A model generated the notes under the pieces. The model was not told the origin of the DNA and did no database searches. It was given only the letters and a program-made list of their open reading frames with translations. The position numbers were made by a program, and so were the translations under genes. This document shows, piece after piece, positions 8,941-22,039 of a stretch of 22,039 nucleotides of DNA. The stretch comes from a virus. Location: IMG/VR virus record IMGVR_UViG_3300030328_002951, positions 1 to 22,039 of that record; one strand, 5' to 3'. Each line of letters starts with the position of its first letter. Positions within the stretch are counted from its first letter, which is position 1.

Positions 8941-9027
8941 ATGCTTTATTCCCTTAGTAGTAGAGGTTGCCTCATATTACCTCGCATATATTATAAAACC
9001 TCTGCTACGGGAATATTAAGTGCTTAA
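8941..9027 (+). CDS. 28-codon ORF over a large hairpin (leader peptide or gene relic)
   Basis: The ATG directly follows the previous TAA and has a strong AAGGAG site 7 nt upstream. The peptide (MLYSLSSRG, then ILPRIYYKTSATG, ending ILSA) spans a long hairpin (8947-9015). In the same frame, after the TAA, come codons for STPYIASILK, nearly matching the STPYIANNLR end of the protein at 21282-21575. It may therefore be a decayed relative of that gene, or a leader peptide. Confidence 0.35.
   Translation: MLYSLSSRGCLILPRIYYKTSATGILSA
8947..9015 (+). ncRNA. Long imperfect hairpin (19 bp with one bulge)
   Basis: TATTCCC at 8947-8953 and GTAGTAGAGGTT at 8957-8968, separated by a 3-nt bulge, pair with the continuous arm at 8997-9015. 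That gives 19 pairs including one G-U, with a 28-nt loop. It could be a structured RNA, an attenuator under the 28-codon ORF, or the DNA trace of an inverted duplication. Confidence 0.5.
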
Positions 9028-9044
9028 AGTACCCCATATATCGC
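9022..9044 (+). repeat. Copy 1 of a 23-nt direct repeat (19 nt exact)
   Basis: AAAGTACCCCATATATCGC at 9026-9044 is identical to 21538-21556. Extending three more bases (GCT) plus one mismatch gives 22 of 23. In-frame translation of both copies gives STPYIA, which favours a shared coding origin, although a site-specific recombination role cannot be excluded because copy 2 is beside the integrase. Confidence 0.8.
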
Positions 9045-9074
9045 TAGTATTTTAAAAATTAAAAGGAGAATTAA

Positions 9075-9347
9075 ATGAAAGATTCATTAATTGAAATATA
9101 TACAAAGTTGTTAAATGATGTTAATGTAGCTTATTCAATTGCACAAAGAAAAGCGACAGGTGCAAACATACATACATTACGTAATAAAGTCTTTACTTTA
9201 AGAAATATATTGCAAGGTAGTATTGAATATGGAGAAGATTATTGGTTTAATACAATATTCAAAGGCGATCTTGATAGATATGAAAGAATGATTGCAGTCG
9301 ATACTGCTAAAGTTGAAGAATTTGAATCATTTATTAATAGCTTATAA
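9075..9347 (+). CDS. Hypothetical 90-aa helical protein
   Basis: The ATG at 9075 is preceded by AAAAGGAGAAT. The sequence is mostly helical and mixed-charge (SLIEIYTKLLNDVNVAYSIAQ, IHTLRNKVFTLRNILQG, DLDRYERMIAVDTAKVEEFESF). No domain is recognised. It is the first of five closely spaced genes (9075-10453), each with its own strong ribosome site except the last. Confidence 0.75.
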   Translation: MKDSLIEIYTKLLNDVNVAYSIAQRKATGANIHTLRNKVFTLRNILQGSIEYGEDYWFNTIFKGDLDRYERMIAVDTAKVEEFESFINSL

Positions 9348-9650: not shown

Positions 9651-9746
9651 ATGACCTATTCAAGATGTTGTAGTGCAATCGTATATGATGACACAGATAT
9701 TTGCTCAAAGTGTTTAGAGCATTGTGATGTGTACAAGGAGGATTAA
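9651..9746 (+). CDS. 31-aa zinc-ribbon-like microprotein
   Basis: The ATG at 9651 has AAGGAG about 5 nt upstream. The peptide carries C6-C7, then C18-x-x-C21 and H24-C25 in an order (CC-SAIV, DTDICSKCLEHC) recurrent in very small phage proteins that start with a CCG/CCS motif and end in CxxCxEHC. It probably binds one zinc ion. Its role is unknown. Its last codons supply the AAGGAGG ribosome site of the next gene, whose ATG follows immediately. Confidence 0.7.
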   Translation: MTYSRCCSAIVYDDTDICSKCLEHCDVYKED

Positions 9747-12117: not shown

Positions 12118-12141
12118 GTATAAGTGTTAATTAGATCAATC

Positions 12142-12177
12142 TCAATAAAGGGTGGTTTTATTGCCACCCTTTATTGA
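12142..12177. terminator. Bidirectional terminator hairpin
   Basis: A perfect 14-bp stem (TCAATAAAGGGTGG with its complement) closes an 8-nt loop. It starts 24 nt after the ParB-like stop and ends 35 nt before the stop of the leftward gene at 12213. The flanking A/T pairs give a short U-rich end on both strands. Its place between converging genes fits a shared terminator. Confidence 0.85.
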
Positions 12178-12212
12178 AACTGCAGAACTGCAATAGGGGT
12201 TACGCTAAATAT

Positions 12213-13390: not shown

Positions 13391-13395
13391 TCATT

Positions 13396-13462
13396 GAATA
13401 GGCTCTTGGCAATTACTCACGCTTCCTTACCCCTTCCGAATACTGAAGCTGAGAGCTTATTC
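13396..13462 (+). ncRNA. Nested stem-loop leader before 13483
   Basis: GAATAGGCTCT at 13396-13406 pairs with AGAGCTTATTC at 13452-13462 (11 bp, one G-U). Inside, GCTTC at 13421-13425 pairs with GAAGC at 13445-13449. The structure begins just after the 13390 stop and ends 20 nt before the next ATG. It is a possible processed or regulated leader; no known riboswitch is recognised. Confidence 0.5.
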
Positions 13463-13482
13463 TTTATCCCTAAAGGATAATA

Positions 13483-14693: not shown

Positions 14694-14705
14694 TTAACTT
14701 CTCCT

Positions 14706-14745
14706 AGGGGGTCAGTTTACTCCGCATTTCTCCGGCTGATCCCCT
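14706..14745 (+). terminator. Hairpin between the DUF932 and annealing-protein genes
   Basis: AGGGGGTCAG and CTGATCCCCT form ten pairs with one G-U around a 20-nt loop that contains a small CCG/CGG stem. It is followed by TTTAAAATTAAAGG, a weak U-run leading into the next ribosome site. It may partly attenuate transcription or cap the 5' end of a processed message. Confidence 0.55.
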
Positions 14746-14765
14746 TTAAAATTAAAGGAACCACT

Positions 14766-16525: not shown

Positions 16526-18306
16526 AAATTGCTTCGGGTCACATAACTAATAGAGGTCGGGCAGATTTAATAAAGAATCTGCCTAACCTTATTGGCAAAA
16601 CAGAGAATGAGCATGAGTTGTATCACAGTTGGTATTCATTTGATAGTGAACTCAATCGTCATCTCAATGCTAAGAAAACTATTAGTTCATTTCGAGGTTC
16701 TTACTATATAGATAAAATTATCTTAGATATAGACAAGCAAAGTTTATCCGATACCGAGTTTTTAAGTTTTATTCGGTATTTTGTTAATGAAACATTGCAA
16801 AATGATTTTCAAATTAAAGAAGATCATATTCAAGTGTGGTTTAGTGGAACTGGATTTCACATTGTACTTCCTAATTTATTTGGATTTAAACCTTCTTTAG
16901 ATCTTCCTATGACGGTTAAAAGCACGTTAGTTGATGTGTTCCCTGATTGTGATAGTATTTATGATGGAGCAAGGTTGATTAGAGCCCCTTTCAGTTTTAA
17001 TAAAAAAAGTGGTTTATTTAAAATACCACTTACATTAAAAGAGTTGTATAAACTGTCTTTTGATGACATTAAAAAGAAAGCCTCTACCCTTCCAAAGAAA
17101 ATTGATTTTGCAAAATACGATTTTGAAGAAGTTGATCCGTATTTAAATCGATTCTTAAAGTTGTACGTTCCTAAACCTATACAAAATCAAGAAACCAGTC
17201 GTTCTGCTTTTGACATGGATCCAAGTACCGTAGTCACTTGTATGCAAACTGTATTGTCTAAATCTCCTGTACATGGAGAAACCAATGATACAATGATGCG
17301 ATTAGCGGGTTGGATGAGACGAAACGGAATGCCTAGAGAAATTGTGTATCGTACTTTATCAGAGTGGTCTGGAAACGATAAGGAAGCACAATCTACTACC
17401 AATAGTGAGTTTGATAAAGGATATAACTATTGGTGTGACGATCCTATTATGGCAAAGCATTGTGATCCTAAATGTATCCACTTTAAACGTAAAGATTATT
17501 CTATGGCAATTAAGAGTGCTAAAACACTTGCTGAGAATTATGCAAAATTTCTTAGAGATGGTATCTCTGAAAAAGCGTTTAATTACAAAGATCTGTATGG
17601 ATTGAATAACGACTCCTGGGCGATGCCGGGTGAGTTGATTATTATCCTTGGAGACACCGGTATGGGTAAGTCTACTTATATCTCTAACTTAGCTATTCAG
17701 TTAAATAAACATCGTATTATGTATTTGTCATTAGAAAATAATGAACACTTAACCATAAAACGTATGTCTCAAATGGCTGAAGGGTATACGCAAAGAGAAA
17801 TCAATAAGCACTACGCAGAATTAAAAGATCCTAAAAATCTTTATTCTCATTTAGAGCATATTCAATTTGCACATATTCCTCCCGAAATAGATAAGCTTCA
17901 AGAACAAGTAGCGTATATGAAACCTCATATCGTTATTGTAGATCCTACTGATGAAATTCATGTGAAAGGTTCTCAAAATGATTTTGATCGTATGAATAAA
18001 ATTATTGGAAAACTGAAAGAGATTGCTAATAACCAAGAATGCATTGTTATTGCAGTTCATCACATTAATAAAGATTCAGGTCGTAGTGGATACGTAGATA
18101 TACACTCAGCAAAAGGAACGAGTAACGTAGTTCAGAAAGCTGATAAAGTTTTTACAATTAACGGTAAAGGTACGGAAAGTGGTCGAATGCTTTATACCGA
18201 AAAGAATAGAGACGGTGGGCGTTGGAAAGTAATGTTTGAATTTGATAAACAAAAAATGTTATTTATTCCATTACCTCCTCCTTCTCTTGGAGATTACAGT
18301 AAATGA
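16501..18306 (+). CDS. PrimPol primase-helicase fusion
   Basis: 601 aa. Residues 68-170 are an archaeo-eukaryotic primase (PrimPol) domain: D76-x-D78 (IILDIDKQ), S115-G-T-G-F-H120, and DGARLIRAPFSFNKKSGL with R158, R161, S165 and K169. A linker with NDTMMRLAGWMRRNGMPRE and a Cys/His set (C312, C321, C325, H328) follows. From 378 comes a SF4/RecA-like helicase: Walker A GDTGMGKST at 384-392, Walker B IVIVD at 477-481 and HHIN at 520-523. It would prime and unwind phage DNA. The start is TTG at 16501 with AAAGGAAAA upstream, inside the previous gene; no in-frame ATG precedes residue 137. Confidence 0.93.
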   Translation: MGSSERFVEIASGHITNRGRADLIKNLPNLIGKTENEHELYHSWYSFDSELNRHLNAKKTISSFRGSYYIDKIILDIDKQSLSDTEFLSFIRYFVNETLQNDFQIKEDHIQVWFSGTGFHIVLPNLFGFKPSLDLPMTVKSTLVDVFPDCDSIYDGARLIRAPFSFNKKSGLFKIPLTLKELYKLSFDDIKKKASTLPKKIDFAKYDFEEVDPYLNRFLKLYVPKPIQNQETSRSAFDMDPSTVVTCMQTVLSKSPVHGETNDTMMRLAGWMRRNGMPREIVYRTLSEWSGNDKEAQSTTNSEFDKGYNYWCDDPIMAKHCDPKCIHFKRKDYSMAIKSAKTLAENYAKFLRDGISEKAFNYKDLYGLNNDSWAMPGELIIILGDTGMGKSTYISNLAIQLNKHRIMYLSLENNEHLTIKRMSQMAEGYTQREINKHYAELKDPKNLYSHLEHIQFAHIPPEIDKLQEQVAYMKPHIVIVDPTDEIHVKGSQNDFDRMNKIIGKLKEIANNQECIVIAVHHINKDSGRSGYVDIHSAKGTSNVVQKADKVFTINGKGTESGRMLYTEKNRDGGRWKVMFEFDKQKMLFIPLPPPSLGDYSK

Positions 18307-18494
18307 AATACGTAATAAGAGTTCAGACTCAAAACAATGCTGAAGGTGTTGGCTTGAGAATGATTTTGTTAAGCATTATAAATATGTTTATAGGGATCCA
18401 TTCTATAAACGGAGAACACGTCAATTTAGGCTTGGGTTTTGGACCGCTTGAAATGAGTGTGACTTTACATAGATGGACTAGGTGGTTACCTTGA
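18303..18494 (+). CDS. Hypothetical 63-aa protein with a hydrophobic segment
   Basis: The ATG at 18303 overlaps the helicase stop (ATGA) and GGAGAT lies 9 nt upstream. The first 15 residues are polar-to-mixed, and residues 16-33 (VGLRMILLSIINMFIGIH) are hydrophobic, perhaps one membrane-associated segment. The rest is Gly-rich with a WTRWLP end. The stop overlaps the TTG start of the resolvase gene. Moderate confidence because the sequence is short and unrecognised. Confidence 0.5.
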   Translation: MKYVIRVQTQNNAEGVGLRMILLSIINMFIGIHSINGEHVNLGLGFGPLEMSVTLHRWTRWLP

Positions 18495-18793
18495 GTCACC
18501 CTAGTAAGATAAAAGGCAATAAGTTTGAACGTGAATTGGTAGACCTCGCCAAAGCGTGGGGTCTATCAGCTAAAAGAGCGTGGGGTAGTAATGGCCGCTC
18601 TCTTGGAATGCACGATGAAGTGGATTGTATTATTGATGATTTAACAGTTCAAGCAAAAAGAAGAAAGAGTATCGCTTCATTTTTAAAATGTGAGCATACT
18701 GACATAGTAGCTTTTAGAGAAGATAGAGGAGATACGTATGTTCTAATGAAATATGAAAAGTTACTTGATATAATAAAGAAATTCAGAGGATAA
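18491..18793 (+). CDS. PD-(D/E)xK nuclease, Holliday-junction-resolvase-like
   Basis: 100 aa when started at TTG 18491, preceded by AGGTGG at 5 nt and overlapping the previous stop (TTGA); GTG at 18482 would add three residues and is also possible. The core is KGNKFERELVDLAKAWGL (active-site E13/E15), then a W-G-S-N-G segment, MHDEVDCIIDD (D45 in this numbering) and VQAKRRKS (Q54-x-K56). This matches the E...D...(E/Q)-x-K pattern of the restriction-endonuclease fold, close to archaeal-type Hjc resolvases. It would resolve branched recombination intermediates before packaging. Neighbours (helicase upstream, annealing protein further up) fit. Confidence 0.8.
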   Translation: MSHPSKIKGNKFERELVDLAKAWGLSAKRAWGSNGRSLGMHDEVDCIIDDLTVQAKRRKSIASFLKCEHTDIVAFREDRGDTYVLMKYEKLLDIIKKFRG

Positions 18794-18794
18794 C

Positions 18795-19013
18795 ATGAAA
18801 ATAGAATTTGTAAAGCCAGTATTTCACATAGATAAGTTTTTTAAAATAGCTGATCATTTACTTAGGGCAGATGACTATGAGTTGGTTGAAATGGGTCGTG
18901 CTATGAGAAAAGCTTATGAGAATCAAATGGTTGAGGTTGAAGAAAAACCACATGATGATTTAGGAAAAGGTATCTACGCTCCCGATAAATGTGAAACTGG
19001 AACGTGTGATTAA
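18795..19013 (+). CDS. Hypothetical 72-aa acidic protein
   Basis: The ATG at 18795 has AGAGGAT 4 nt upstream and starts 1 nt after the resolvase stop. It is amphipathic and acidic (MKIEFVKPVFHIDKFFKIADHLLRADDYELVEMGRAMRKAYENQ as the helical core), ending in a C-x-x-x-x-C pair (CETGTCD). It may be a small regulatory or DNA-metabolism protein. Not recognised. Confidence 0.7.
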   Translation: MKIEFVKPVFHIDKFFKIADHLLRADDYELVEMGRAMRKAYENQMVEVEEKPHDDLGKGIYAPDKCETGTCD

Positions 19014-19019
19014 AGCTTA

Positions 19020-19093
19020 TGGGGGTAGTTGCTATAAATAAGGCTCCAACTATAGAGTATTTATACAGCGAATTAACGTCTACGCTGCCCCCA
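19020..19093 (+). ncRNA. Structured RNA candidate closed by a GGGGG/CCCCC stem
   Basis: TGGGGGTAG (19020-19028) pairs with CTGCCCCCA (19085-19093), nine pairs with one G-U. Inside, TATAAATA at 19033-19040 pairs with TATTTATA at 19058-19065, which in turn encloses CTC (19044-19046) and GAG (19055-19057). CAGCG/CGCTG can pair in an alternative fold. The 72-nt size and 7-bp end stem resemble a tRNA, but D-, anticodon- and T-arms do not fit. A second hairpin, GTAAACG/CGTTTAC, lies at 19143-19170. An ORF across this stretch (19019-19207) has no ribosome site. Confidence 0.5.
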
Positions 19094-19281
19094 ATTAAAC
19101 ATTTGAGTTCCTGTAGACATAAAAGAATTTCTCAAACTAAACGTAAACGTGGAATATATAAAGCGTTTACACATATTTATGAATATAAAAATATTATTTG
19201 TAATTAGTTCTGAGATTAATTATGGCAAATATGGTTTGGCGATCAATTACGGGAACTCAATAAACTTAAAAGGAGACTTAT

Positions 19282-19425
19282 ATGATATTAGTAATAAGCT
19301 TTTTATTGATAGGTATTTTTATTTTAACAGTCGGGTTTATCGATAGAAAAATAACCGAAAACCAAGACAGACTTTTTTATGAAAATGAAGAACTTTTAAA
19401 TCAAGAGTCTAAAGGAAATATTTAA
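19282..19425 (+). CDS. 47-aa membrane-anchored coiled-coil micropeptide
   Basis: The ATG at 19282 has an excellent AAAAGGAGACT upstream. Residues 1-18 (MILVISFLLIGIFILTVG) are a membrane segment; the rest (DRKITENQDRLFYENEELLNQESKG) is a charged helix. This gives a type-II-like or signal-anchor topology. The stop overlaps the next ATG (TAATG), coupling it to the MazG-like gene. Phage micropeptides with this shape include superinfection-exclusion and anti-host factors, but the assignment here is open. Confidence 0.75.
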   Translation: MILVISFLLIGIFILTVGFIDRKITENQDRLFYENEELLNQESKGNI

Positions 19426-19652
19426 TGCTAAATAAAGGATATAATTTAGAAATCGTTGCAAAAGTAATTGAAAGACTTGAAAAAGGTAAACGTGAATACG
19501 CTCAAGAAGTAGACATTCATGACGGTAGAGAATGGATACAGGAAACCATTGAAGAAGTTCTTGATGCTTTAGTCTATCTTTCTGCCAAATTGCTTATGAT
19601 TCAAGAAAAAGACAAGGAACATAATAAATCGGATGTTCCAAAGGACAGGTAA
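19425..19652 (+). CDS. MazG-like nucleotide pyrophosphohydrolase (short)
   Basis: 75 aa with AAAGGAAA upstream of the ATG, which overlaps the previous stop. The segment HDGREWIQETIEEVLDALVYLSAKLL carries E40, E43-E44 and D47, the EExxD-type metal-binding set of the MazG/all-alpha NTP pyrophosphohydrolase superfamily. The gene is shorter than a complete single-domain MazG (about 100 residues) and lacks an obvious second metal-site helix after position 60, so it may be a minimal phage version needing dimerisation. In phages, such proteins are thought to remove abnormal nucleotides or alarmones. Confidence 0.7.
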   Translation: MLNKGYNLEIVAKVIERLEKGKREYAQEVDIHDGREWIQETIEEVLDALVYLSAKLLMIQEKDKEHNKSDVPKDR

Positions 19653-19653
19653 A

Positions 19654-19884
19654 ATGGAATGGGTGATAAAGCGTTTAATGGTAAATGCTCAACAAAAAAA
19701 TGCATACATAACTAAAACACCTAGAAGTATTTCTAAAAGCGATTCTAATAGACTTAGATATTGCATAGAATGTAAAAATGTGTATGAAAAAACAAGATAT
19801 AATAACAATATAGTTATGCATGGGAAACACATCCCTACTTTGGGAAAAGAAAGAGAACTTTGTAAATACTGTGAGGATAAATAA
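19654..19884 (+). CDS. 76-aa zinc-finger-like protein
   Basis: The ATG at 19654 is preceded by AAAGGACAGG; an upstream in-frame start at 19633 lies inside the MazG-like gene. It is basic at the N-terminus (VIKRLMVNAQQKN, RSISKSDSNRLR), then has a C-x-x-C pair (CIEC) and a second pair near the end (CKYC), fitting one zinc site. Its TAA overlaps the next ATG. DNA or protein binding is possible; no family is recognised. Confidence 0.7.
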   Translation: MEWVIKRLMVNAQQKNAYITKTPRSISKSDSNRLRYCIECKNVYEKTRYNNNIVMHGKHIPTLGKERELCKYCEDK

Positions 19885-20051
19885 TGATTATTGCTGATAT
19901 TGCAGATTGGTTAGTTGATTTTTTTATATTTAGTCTTTCGTTGTTTTTTACTTCGATAGGCATTTTTACCACAATGGGTATTTTATTATTAATACTGTAC
20001 TATTATAAAGAATGGAAAGTATTTAAAACAAAAAGGAGGACATCTAGCTAA
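19884..20051 (+). CDS. 55-aa integral membrane micropeptide (A)
   Basis: The ATG at 19884 shares bases with the preceding stop (TAATG). A short polar start (MIIADIADWLVD) is followed by about 30 hydrophobic residues that could form one long or two short membrane spans (FFIFSLSLFFTSIGIF, then TTMGILLLILYYY), with a basic C-terminus (KEWKVFKTKRRTSS). It is directly followed, again by TAATG, by a second membrane peptide. The pair could be a small membrane complex; a holin-type function is conceivable, but no lysin gene is nearby. Confidence 0.7.
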   Translation: MIIADIADWLVDFFIFSLSLFFTSIGIFTTMGILLLILYYYKEWKVFKTKRRTSS

Positions 20052-20218
20052 TGTTACCTTACTATATATATGAAGTGGCAATTACAGGGGTTATGGATAA
20101 TCTATTCCTCTGTTTTTGTATGATTGTGTTTTATTTTATGAATAAATATTGGCTGTTTCCTATATTGAAAGATATAGACAATAAGCTGACAATAATCATG
20201 GAGAAACTGCGTGGGTGA
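20051..20218 (+). CDS. 55-aa integral membrane micropeptide (B)
   Basis: The ATG at 20051 overlaps the stop of peptide A; AAAAGGAGGA lies 11 nt upstream, at the end of peptide A. An N-terminal MLPYYIYEVAITG is followed by a membrane segment (NLFLCFCMIVFYFM, with two Cys) and a charged C-terminus (ILKDIDNKLTIIMEKLRG). Its 3' end overlaps the GTG start of the next gene by 8 nt. It has the same length as peptide A but shows no clear sequence similarity to it. Confidence 0.7.
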   Translation: MLPYYIYEVAITGVMDNLFLCFCMIVFYFMNKYWLFPILKDIDNKLTIIMEKLRG

Positions 20219-20429
20219 TATTTACGAAAGCACCATACCTCAGTCTTTTTATGAATCTGAAATGCATCGCTTATCTGAAGCTGTAATGACTCAAGAAGTT
20301 GCTATAGAGGAGTCTTTAAAGATTCTAAAGCGTGTTAAAAGCAAATTGGTTTATATAAAAGAACATGAGGATCTCGTTCCTGATGCTGAACTGCAAAGCA
20401 TCATTGATATAATTAAAAAGGTTGTATAG
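20211..20429 (+). CDS. Hypothetical 72-aa coiled-coil protein
   Basis: The GTG at 20211 has TGGAGAAA about 6 nt upstream and starts within the 3' end of peptide B. The sequence is helical throughout (SEMHRLSEAVMTQEVAIEE, LKILKRVKSKLVYIKEHEDL, ELQSIIDIIKKVV). A soluble partner of the membrane peptides is a possibility from the coupling. No family is recognised. Confidence 0.65.
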   Translation: MGDIYESTIPQSFYESEMHRLSEAVMTQEVAIEESLKILKRVKSKLVYIKEHEDLVPDAELQSIIDIIKKVV

Positions 20430-20472
20430 ATATAATTAGGTAAGGGTAAGGAAGTCTAATGGAGATAATCCA

Positions 20473-20775
20473 ATGGCTTCCAGAGACAATGAAGAATACC
20501 GTAATAAAAAATGGGCAAGAATATATGATTTAAAATACTACTTCGGCAAACAAGCTGATGAGTGGATTGATCTCTTGCTAGTAGCAGAAGATAAGGCTCT
20601 TAACAGTTGGCGTGGTAAAAAACCAACTGAATACCCTCCTTATCTCTGCTTACAATGTAACCGATACTGGTCTTATGCGTTAAATAGTAGAAAAAAGAAG
20701 ATACAAATCTATTTACTAAATAGCGTATTTAAAGGGATCTTGTGTCAAAAACAAACTTGTAAAAATTGTAAGTAA
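20473..20775 (+). CDS. 100-aa zinc-ribbon-like protein
   Basis: The ATG at 20473 has TGGAGATAAT upstream. The N-terminal part (RNKKWARIYDLKYYFGKQADEWIDLLLVAEDKALN) is helical. The C-terminal part has C-x-x-C (CLQCNRYW) at about 78-81 and C...C-x-x-C (CQKQTCKNC) at the end, likely one zinc ion. The central basic helix (SRKKKIQIYLL) could contact nucleic acid. It is followed by the structured non-coding region at 20781-20888. Confidence 0.7.
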   Translation: MASRDNEEYRNKKWARIYDLKYYFGKQADEWIDLLLVAEDKALNSWRGKKPTEYPPYLCLQCNRYWSYALNSRKKKIQIYLLNSVFKGILCQKQTCKNCK

Positions 20776-20780
20776 GAGTA

Positions 20781-20888
20781 TTCAAGAGTAAAAAAAAAGT
20801 AACGTTTGGTAATATTATTAGCTCTTGAAACCCAAGTCTTTCAAAAGGAAAGCGGGTGTTTGTGGTCATCGCTGACTAAAACCACAAA
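20781..20888 (+). ncRNA. Three-hairpin intergenic RNA candidate
   Basis: Three consecutive stems fill this gap. P1: TTCAAGAG (20781-20788) with CTCTTGAA (20822-20829), perfect, enclosing a 33-nt A-rich segment. P2: ACCC (20830-20833) and CTTTC (20838-20842) with GAAAG (20848-20852) and GGGT (20854-20857). P3: TTTGTGGT (20859-20866) with ACCACAAA (20881-20888), with an alternative inner GTCA/TGAC helix. P1, P2 and P3 are directly adjacent. No reading frame explains it. It lies before the AAGGAGAG ribosome site of the 60-aa gene at 20913, so it may be a leader, a small RNA or an attenuator. No known class is recognised. Confidence 0.6.
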
Positions 20889-20912
20889 ATTTAAATAATT
20901 AAGGAGAGTTAA

Positions 20913-21095
20913 ATGACAGTTGAAGAGCTTATTAAAGCATTAAAAGATATAAAAGATCAAACCTTACCTATTAGAGTAATAGATAATGATTTTTGGGAAA
21001 ACAATAAATGGGTTACAGGAATTGGATCCATTAATAACACAGGAGACTCTGGGTATGAAGAATCTGGAGAAGTCGTGTTACTTATTGATGAATAA
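20913..21095 (+). CDS. Small 60-aa conserved-type phage protein
   Basis: The ATG at 20913 follows AAGGAGAG. The opening MTVEELIKALKDIKDQTLPIRV is a frequent pattern in short phage proteins (M-T-V-x-E-L-I-x-x-L), followed by IDNDFWENNKWVTGIG and an acidic end (ESGEVVLLIDE). No function is known. It is the first gene after the structured region. Confidence 0.7.
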   Translation: MTVEELIKALKDIKDQTLPIRVIDNDFWENNKWVTGIGSINNTGDSGYEESGEVVLLIDE

Positions 21096-21105
21096 GGATA
21101 TTATA

Positions 21106-21279
21106 ATGACAAAAAGGTTTAAACATTTAAGCAATCAAGAGTTAGTAAATAAAATAAATCAACGATATTTAAATGGTCAAAATGACGATGATTATGTAGC
21201 TGAATTATTTTATAGAAGAAGTGTTCAAGGTTTTAAAGTTATTCCTAAATGGAATACTTATGAAATAAAGGAGGATTAA
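21106..21279 (+). CDS. Hypothetical 57-aa protein
   Basis: The ATG at 21106 has AAGGAT 8 nt upstream. The frame is open upstream into the previous gene, but that extension has no ribosome site and is rejected. The sequence is MTKRFKHLSNQELVNKINQRY, then NDDDYVAELFYRRSV and a WNTYEIKED end. No family is recognised. The AAGGAGG at its 3' end serves the next gene. Confidence 0.65.
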   Translation: MTKRFKHLSNQELVNKINQRYLNGQNDDDYVAELFYRRSVQGFKVIPKWNTYEIKED

Positions 21280-21281
21280 AT

Positions 21282-21575
21282 GTGACCTATACATATATGT
21301 GGAGGGAATATCCGTTTATTCGTGGTGACAAATGTTATCGGTATCAAACTAGCGATCCCCATATACATAAAAAGATGAGACAACGTAAAGATTTCTCATT
21401 AGTTATGTGGGGATTAAACCGAAATATATGGGTGTATGTTTCAAAGAAAAATAACCTCGAGAAAGCCAAAAGAACTCTACGTAACCTTACACATAGTTCC
21501 GTAAAAAAACACACCGCTAGTAGCGTATTTTTAGCTCAAAGTACCCCATATATCGCCAACAATTTAAGACCTTAA
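21282..21575 (+). CDS. Hypothetical 97-aa basic protein
   Basis: GTG start at 21282, 3 nt after the previous stop, with AAGGAGG upstream; an ATG two bases earlier is immediately followed by TGA, so GTG is the usable start. The protein is basic and aromatic (YTYMWREYPFIRGDKCYRYQ, HKKMRQRKDFSLVMWGLNRNIWVYVSKK) and ends in AQSTPYIANNLRP, the stretch encoded by copy 2 of the 23-nt repeat. It converges on the integrase gene with stop codons 1 nt apart. Not recognised. Confidence 0.65.
   Translation: MTYTYMWREYPFIRGDKCYRYQTSDPHIHKKMRQRKDFSLVMWGLNRNIWVYVSKKNNLEKAKRTLRNLTHSSVKKHTASSVFLAQSTPYIANNLRP
21534..21556 (+). repeat. Copy 2 of the 23-nt direct repeat, beside the integrase
   Basis: 22 of 23 bases match 9022-9044, with 19 exact. 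It lies inside the 3' end of the 97-aa gene and 20 nt from the integrase stop, where an attachment site is often found. It does not look like a tRNA 3' end. Coding origin is the simpler reading. Confidence 0.7.
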
Positions 21576-22039
21576 CTATAACATAAAGTCTTCTACGTCT
21601 GTAACCAATAAAGGAGCGTAATGTTTCTCGGTTGTGCTTACAGATTTATGTCCTAACAGTTTACTGACTTTATAAATAGGTACGTTATGTTTAGCAATTA
21701 AATTGTATCCAAAAGTTCTGCGTAGGTCATGGAAACGTCCATCTTTAATTTCCATCCTACGTAGATTCTTTTTAAAGCGTTTACTAATATACTCTCCTTT
21801 ATATGTCCACATTCCCTCTTTATTACTTAACACCGTTCTAGCTTGTTTATTTAATCGTATTAAACGTCTTCCTGTCTTGCCATGTGTTTCAAAGTAAAGA
21901 GATTTGAATTTATGAACTTCCATATTCTCTAACTCCCCTCTCCTTGCTCCTGTATAATAAGCAAACTGAACAAAGCTTCTAAAGTCTTCATCTAAAGTAT
22001 CGTTTAAAATAAGATTCATTTCAGCTTCATTAAAAACTC
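21576..22039 (-). CDS. int: Tyrosine recombinase / phage integrase, catalytic domain (N-terminus off the right edge)
   Basis: The frame is open to the window edge; an internal ATG at 22019 is not the true start because the upstream codons (V-F-N-E-A-E) continue the usual beginning of the catalytic domain. Numbering from that ATG, the active-site set is complete: R26 in TGARRGEL, K48 in HGKTG, H97-x-x-R100 in HDLRRT, H124 in LLGHKS and Y134 in EKHYAPL. It would integrate and excise the phage at specific attachment sites, showing a temperate life cycle. The arm-binding and core-binding N-terminal domains lie outside the window. It is transcribed leftward, convergent with the early operon. Confidence 0.93.
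   Translation of the reverse strand, partial: VFNEAEMNLILNDTLDEDFRSFVQFAYYTGARRGELENMEVHKFKSLYFETHGKTGRRLIRLNKQARTVLSNKEGMWTYKGEYISKRFKKNLRRMEIKDGRFHDLRRTFGYNLIAKHNVPIYKVSKLLGHKSVSTTEKHYAPLLVTDVEDFML

Follow-up and report, generated by a model that had tools for sequence, protein, structure and literature searches.

The gap at 20776-20912 of the window (the whole stretch of viral DNA that was analysed, 22,039 nt) contains a conserved structured non-coding element, a view supported by its recurrence in a second phage, L010, with the stems kept and without a shared reading frame. The best explanation, to which we give about an even chance, is that this accessory intergenic element is the 5' leader of a small-gene cassette open to exchange. 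This reading follows from the non-coding character of the element, its presence in the same orientation beside different genes in two otherwise largely dissimilar phages, the retention of its three inner stems, and its start at a mosaic breakpoint. The element might act on the mRNA of whichever small genes follow, e.g., by shielding, processing, or tuning the transcript upstream of the ribosome-binding site (RBS).

Three hairpins (P1, P2, and P3) almost abut within the gap, which is located on the plus strand and flanked by genes of 100 and 60 aa. The preliminary description had proposed a gap of 137 nt, two perfect 8-bp stems, and a small gene with its own ribosome site, all of which were confirmed; the gap lacks a conserved open reading frame (ORF), and the individual features are as follows.

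20780 to 20912, plus strand: whole element common to phage L010 (4559-4695 there, minus strand), extending as far as the RBS and start codon of the gene that follows
20781 to 20829, plus strand: P1 hairpin, a perfect 8-bp stem of TTCAAGAG (20781-20788) and CTCTTGAA (20822-20829) with an AT-rich loop of 33 nt
20809 to 20828, plus strand: part of P1 left over from the 3' end of an MTV-family gene
20836 to 20853, plus strand: P2 hairpin, a perfect 5-bp stem of CTTTC (20838-20842) and GAAAG (20848-20852), plus the pair G20836-C20853
20859 to 20888, plus strand: P3 hairpin, a perfect 8-bp stem of TTTGTGGT (20859-20866) and ACCACAAA (20881-20888)
20865 to 20868 with 20873 to 20876, plus strand: alternative inner helix in P3 (GTCA/TGAC)
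20901 to 20906, plus strand: RBS AAGGAG, preceding the start of the 60-aa gene at 20913
20913 to 21095, plus strand: MTV-family small gene (MTVEELIKAL), 60 aa, in the swapped cassette, with 80% DNA identity to the L010 copy

Four patterns, each for a different part of the element and catching near-exact copies only, were scanned against IMG/VR and revealed one true further copy, on the minus strand of IMGVR_UViG_3300030104_005811 (L010). Both copies derive from metagenome contigs, and the two elements are 86.5% identical over 141 columns (blastn). L010 is otherwise mostly dissimilar to the window; outside the element, the two have in common only the downstream MTV gene and 66 nt of a small zinc-ribbon gene. 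This zinc-ribbon gene of the window (9651-9746; MTYSRCCSAIVYDDTDICSKCLEHCDVYKED) matches a portion of L010 3807-4028 at 85% DNA identity. In L010, the element has a different upstream gene and is followed first by another gene (MSGSTIDQ...) and then by the MTV gene; the orientation of the element relative to the next gene is the same as in the window. P3 is followed there by GGAGAG, at a spacing similar to that of the window RBS and ahead of another gene.

Of the 137 aligned columns, 24 differ between the two elements, and they leave an identical 45-nt run (20845-20889) that comprises the 3' side of P2, CGGGTG, and the whole of P3 (P = 0.0005 if the differing columns are placed at random). Over the span of the hairpins, 1 of 44 stem columns changed versus 12 of 66 unpaired ones (window versus L010; Fisher p = 0.014), and the sole stem difference replaces a U-A pair of P1 by U-G. 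There are no two-sided stem changes between the copies, and two sequences are too few for covariation. In L010, all of the 5-nt linker that separates P1 from P2 is altered, so the outer P2 helix (ACCC 20830-20833/GGGT 20854-20857) is lost. Of the two-part P2 proposed earlier, the inner 5-bp stem is perfect and conserved, whereas the outer 4-bp stem is broken in the sole homologue. The identical core adjoins unalignable linkers, and the MTV gene next to the element has a pS of 0.29 and a pN of 0.16; an invariant non-coding core beside a gene with such a pS implies constraint or a younger transfer. Identical loops in both copies indicate that the sequence has been kept as well as the structure. 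The conservation pattern suggests a constraint on P2-P3 that, with two sequences, fits an RNA as well as a DNA function. Sequence conservation of P2-P3, loops included, speaks against the leader reading insofar as a role at the DNA level would explain it equally well.

The comparison with L008, the 51-kb record of a near-identical phage, provides the genomic context of the element. Blastn blocks between L008 and the window extend over 17473-20780 (96%) and 21260-22039 (98%) and delimit the following feature.

20781 to 21259, no strand assigned: segment replaced relative to L008, the 5' edge of the element being the mosaic breakpoint at 20780

Between the blocks, L008 carries another MTV-family gene that directly abuts the upstream gene, and the element is absent from the whole L008 record. 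A tRNA gene (L008 5113-5185; Rfam) immediately precedes the start of the integrase gene and is a possible attachment site. The MTV-family gap count comprised 54 loci, 52 of them with a visible upstream gene, which abuts or lies within 15 nt of the MTV relative in 49 of the 52. The element is therefore not the standard leader of the MTV family. A leader role for the MTVEELIKAL family, as suggested beforehand, has to be given up in view of these short gaps, the lack of the element in L008, and the other next gene in L010. In L030, a 208-nt gap (2290-2500) precedes the MTV-family gene and contains a 10-bp long-range pairing (GTAAGGTTGC/GCAACCTTAC); this gap is unrelated to the window element and has no Rfam match.

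The hairpin stems are beyond chance, and the overall stability is within chance. Of 5000 dinucleotide shuffles of the region, 0.02% contained two non-overlapping perfect 8-bp stems, and the window has no second place of this kind; the statistic (at least two G-C, 131 nt) was picked after the stems were seen. CTTTC-N5-GAAAG occurs once in the window versus an expectation of 0.02. The folding energy of the region is -24.3 kcal/mol (z = -2.27; exact gap, z = -1.54), the minus strand of the gap folds equally well (z -2.87), and 34% of the 131-nt stretches of the window are at least as stable. A stronger coding-strand z than that of the hairpin gap was obtained for the same-strand gaps 8941-9074, 13391-13482, and 14694-14765. 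The claimed rarity of packed perfect stems accordingly holds for the stems themselves, but the folding energy is unexceptional and not strand-specific.

The first of these gaps is a second spacer of note.

8941 to 9074, plus strand: another structured gap, in which an RBS follows a long hairpin (8946-9016)

Its fold has a z of -3.4 to -3.8, and it is 94% identical in the sister phage G002 (C1:47531-47666), where two extra genes precede the counterpart and a different gene follows. A 34-nt repeat (85%) connects positions 9022-9055 of this gap, before the gene at 9075, with 21534-21567 at the 3' end of the 97-aa gene 21282-21575; the copy in the gap is apparently a gene-end remnant. Two structured spacers that are unlike in sequence thus behave alike, i.e., they are kept while the small genes on either side are exchanged. 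Significant coding-strand folds were also seen in 13391-13482 and 14694-14765 (z -3.4 and -2.7, respectively). A strong palindrome in the gap 12118-12212 between convergent genes (z -4.2 on one strand and -5.9 on the other) is probably a two-way terminator.

Searches of the window, L010, and L008 with Rfam 15 yielded no matches at the gathering score and chance-level matches only at E <= 10, as anticipated from the lack of a recognisable riboswitch or ribozyme. The cores of hammerhead, twister, and pistol ribozymes, inspected only visually, are covered by Rfam, which gave no match; no tRNA was found in the tRNA search. A match to a coding frame, named at the outset as an observation that would speak against the element, was looked for on both strands in the two copies and is absent, there being no conserved reading frame common to both. 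The 46-aa minus-strand ORF 20729-20869 was rejected (L010 has a stop after nine codons), as were the plus-strand frames, which are broken by indels and stops. A covariance model detected no additional copy in 38 whole virus records and none in 398 Pseudomonadota genomes; the latter scan alone shows little. Annotated phages and plasmids returned chance pieces only. A P2-P3 pattern match in an alphaproteobacterium (L015), with apparent covariation in P3, was rejected because the stretch joins two diverged repeats in its genome and a paralogue is without the motif. Five IMG/VR matches to the P2 pattern (L021-L025) are without P1 and P3, and their number is as expected by chance. Two short matches were likewise attributed to chance: that in L006 belongs to a hairpin whose opposite strand has a T-run, and that in L047 represents a terminator and gene end. 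The element was also rejected as an attP site, since L008 has the same integrase yet no element.

P1 holds the debris of a lost gene, since the best match of the element to MTV-family 3' ends has a score that was reached by none of 400 shuffles and none of 276 genomic controls. The L010 stretch GGTAATATTATTAACTCTTGAGTAA in P1 matches the 3' end of the MTV-family gene of L069 with the stop codon in register: L010 reads GTA ATA TTA TTA ACT CTT GAG TAA (VILLTLE-stop) and L069 VILLTSE-stop. A remnant of an MTV gene start in the 5' half of P1 was rejected as not significant (17% of controls). The debris agrees with the rather unlikely alternative that the entire gap is a leftover of a small-gene deletion with incidental hairpins, its similarity to L010 being due to a fairly recent transfer. 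The 85% match of the gap 8941-9074 to the 3' end of the gene 21282-21575, the dispensability of the element (absent from L008), and the possibility that the pairing of the P1 arms is a coincidence point in the same direction. However, neutral debris would not be expected to leave 45 nt identical beside linkers that have strongly diverged when the neighbouring gene has a pS of 0.29, and the stems are kept in L010. The element is unlikely to represent a new kind of phage RNA, in which three mobile hairpins, as a leader or a small RNA, would accompany small accessory genes and control how whichever gene lies behind them is transcribed or translated. The compact structured core, in the same orientation next to differing neighbours, would suit a unit that does not depend on the following gene. 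A phage small RNA standing on its own (about 110 nt) is nevertheless quite unlikely, given an RBS and start codon within 25 nt, the lack of a terminator-like site in 17000-22039 and hence past P3, and promoter-like matches at chance level. The leader reading also draws on a TATTAT hexamer resembling a -10 box, which both copies carry in the conserved P1 loop and which recurs in the second element (8941-9074); against that reading, the match, with a weak -35, reaches 8 to 9 of 12 in AT-rich DNA, where the number of promoter-like sites is at chance level.

Both copies consist of CTCTTGA, a 9-nt linker of constant length and varying sequence, a 5-bp hairpin, and the GT-rich GGGTGTTTGTGG, which brings to mind a cis-acting antitermination site that modifies RNA polymerase. 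In lambdoid nut sites, boxA is followed by boxB (PMC6614801), and the put RNA of HK022, about 70 nt with two stem-loops, requires no protein (PMC9378689). Leader-borne hairpins in phage operons are common to these systems and the element; the boxA-boxB-like order is a superficial likeness. Such a function is very unlikely: CTCTTGA sits inside P1 and partly within the gene-end remnant, the site is near the end rather than the start of the plus-strand gene block, and there are three hairpins instead of one or two. The boxB loop of nut is GNRA-like, and the P2 loop (AAAAG or AATAAG) is unlike it. A DNA-level element without RNA function, i.e., either a patch for recombination or a mobile sequence ending in hairpins (IS200/IS605-like ends), would be in line with the 5' edge at the mosaic breakpoint, the about equal folding of the two DNA strands, and the fact that removal of 20774-20902 would nearly recreate the L008 junction. 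We regard it as highly improbable, as there is one copy per phage record, none in the 398 genomes, and no transposase nearby, and the RBS region beyond the hairpins is also common to L010.

Regarding known systems, the leader reading has its closest context in the PeSL (promoter early stem-loop) cassettes of T4-type phages, which were reportedly described by Arbiol et al. in 2010 and Comeau et al. in 2014. PeSLs are mobile regulatory cassettes of T4-type phages at the borders of shuffled genes (PMC4503421). The likeness consists in a non-coding hairpin sequence between small genes that is kept as the flanking genes vary, at the edge of a shuffled module; the element indeed lies between small genes shuffled among relatives (window versus L008 and L010), as does the gap 8941-9074 (window versus G002). 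It differs in the terminator-type stem-loop, stem-loops being present without a terminator-like site in 17000-22039, and in motif density, with one copy per record and another sequence in the gap 8941-9074. Only weak promoter-like matches were found in the window element, and the comparison with PeSLs is one of descriptions rather than sequences. The terminase of the window phage has distant relatives only (22 to 26% identity, in phages of many hosts), and as far as it shows, it does not point to a T4-type phage. Since the terminator and multi-copy features fail, the element was not filed as a PeSL; by analogy, it may work like one in its context, and its kept sequence could double as a homology patch for swapping small genes in and out, as in PeSL cassettes. 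The uncharacterised phage intergenic RNAs of the Rfam type resemble the element in being compact, structured, and non-coding within an AT-rich phage genome, but the element matches no Rfam family, and a family could not be defined from two copies.

Phages constantly exchange small accessory genes. How swap borders are marked and incoming genes expressed is, to our knowledge, known mainly from T4-type phages. As a lead only, taken from two element copies, the presence of two independent conserved structured spacers at swap borders of an uncultured non-model phage suggests hairpin leaders as a possible general means of fitting new genes into phage operons.
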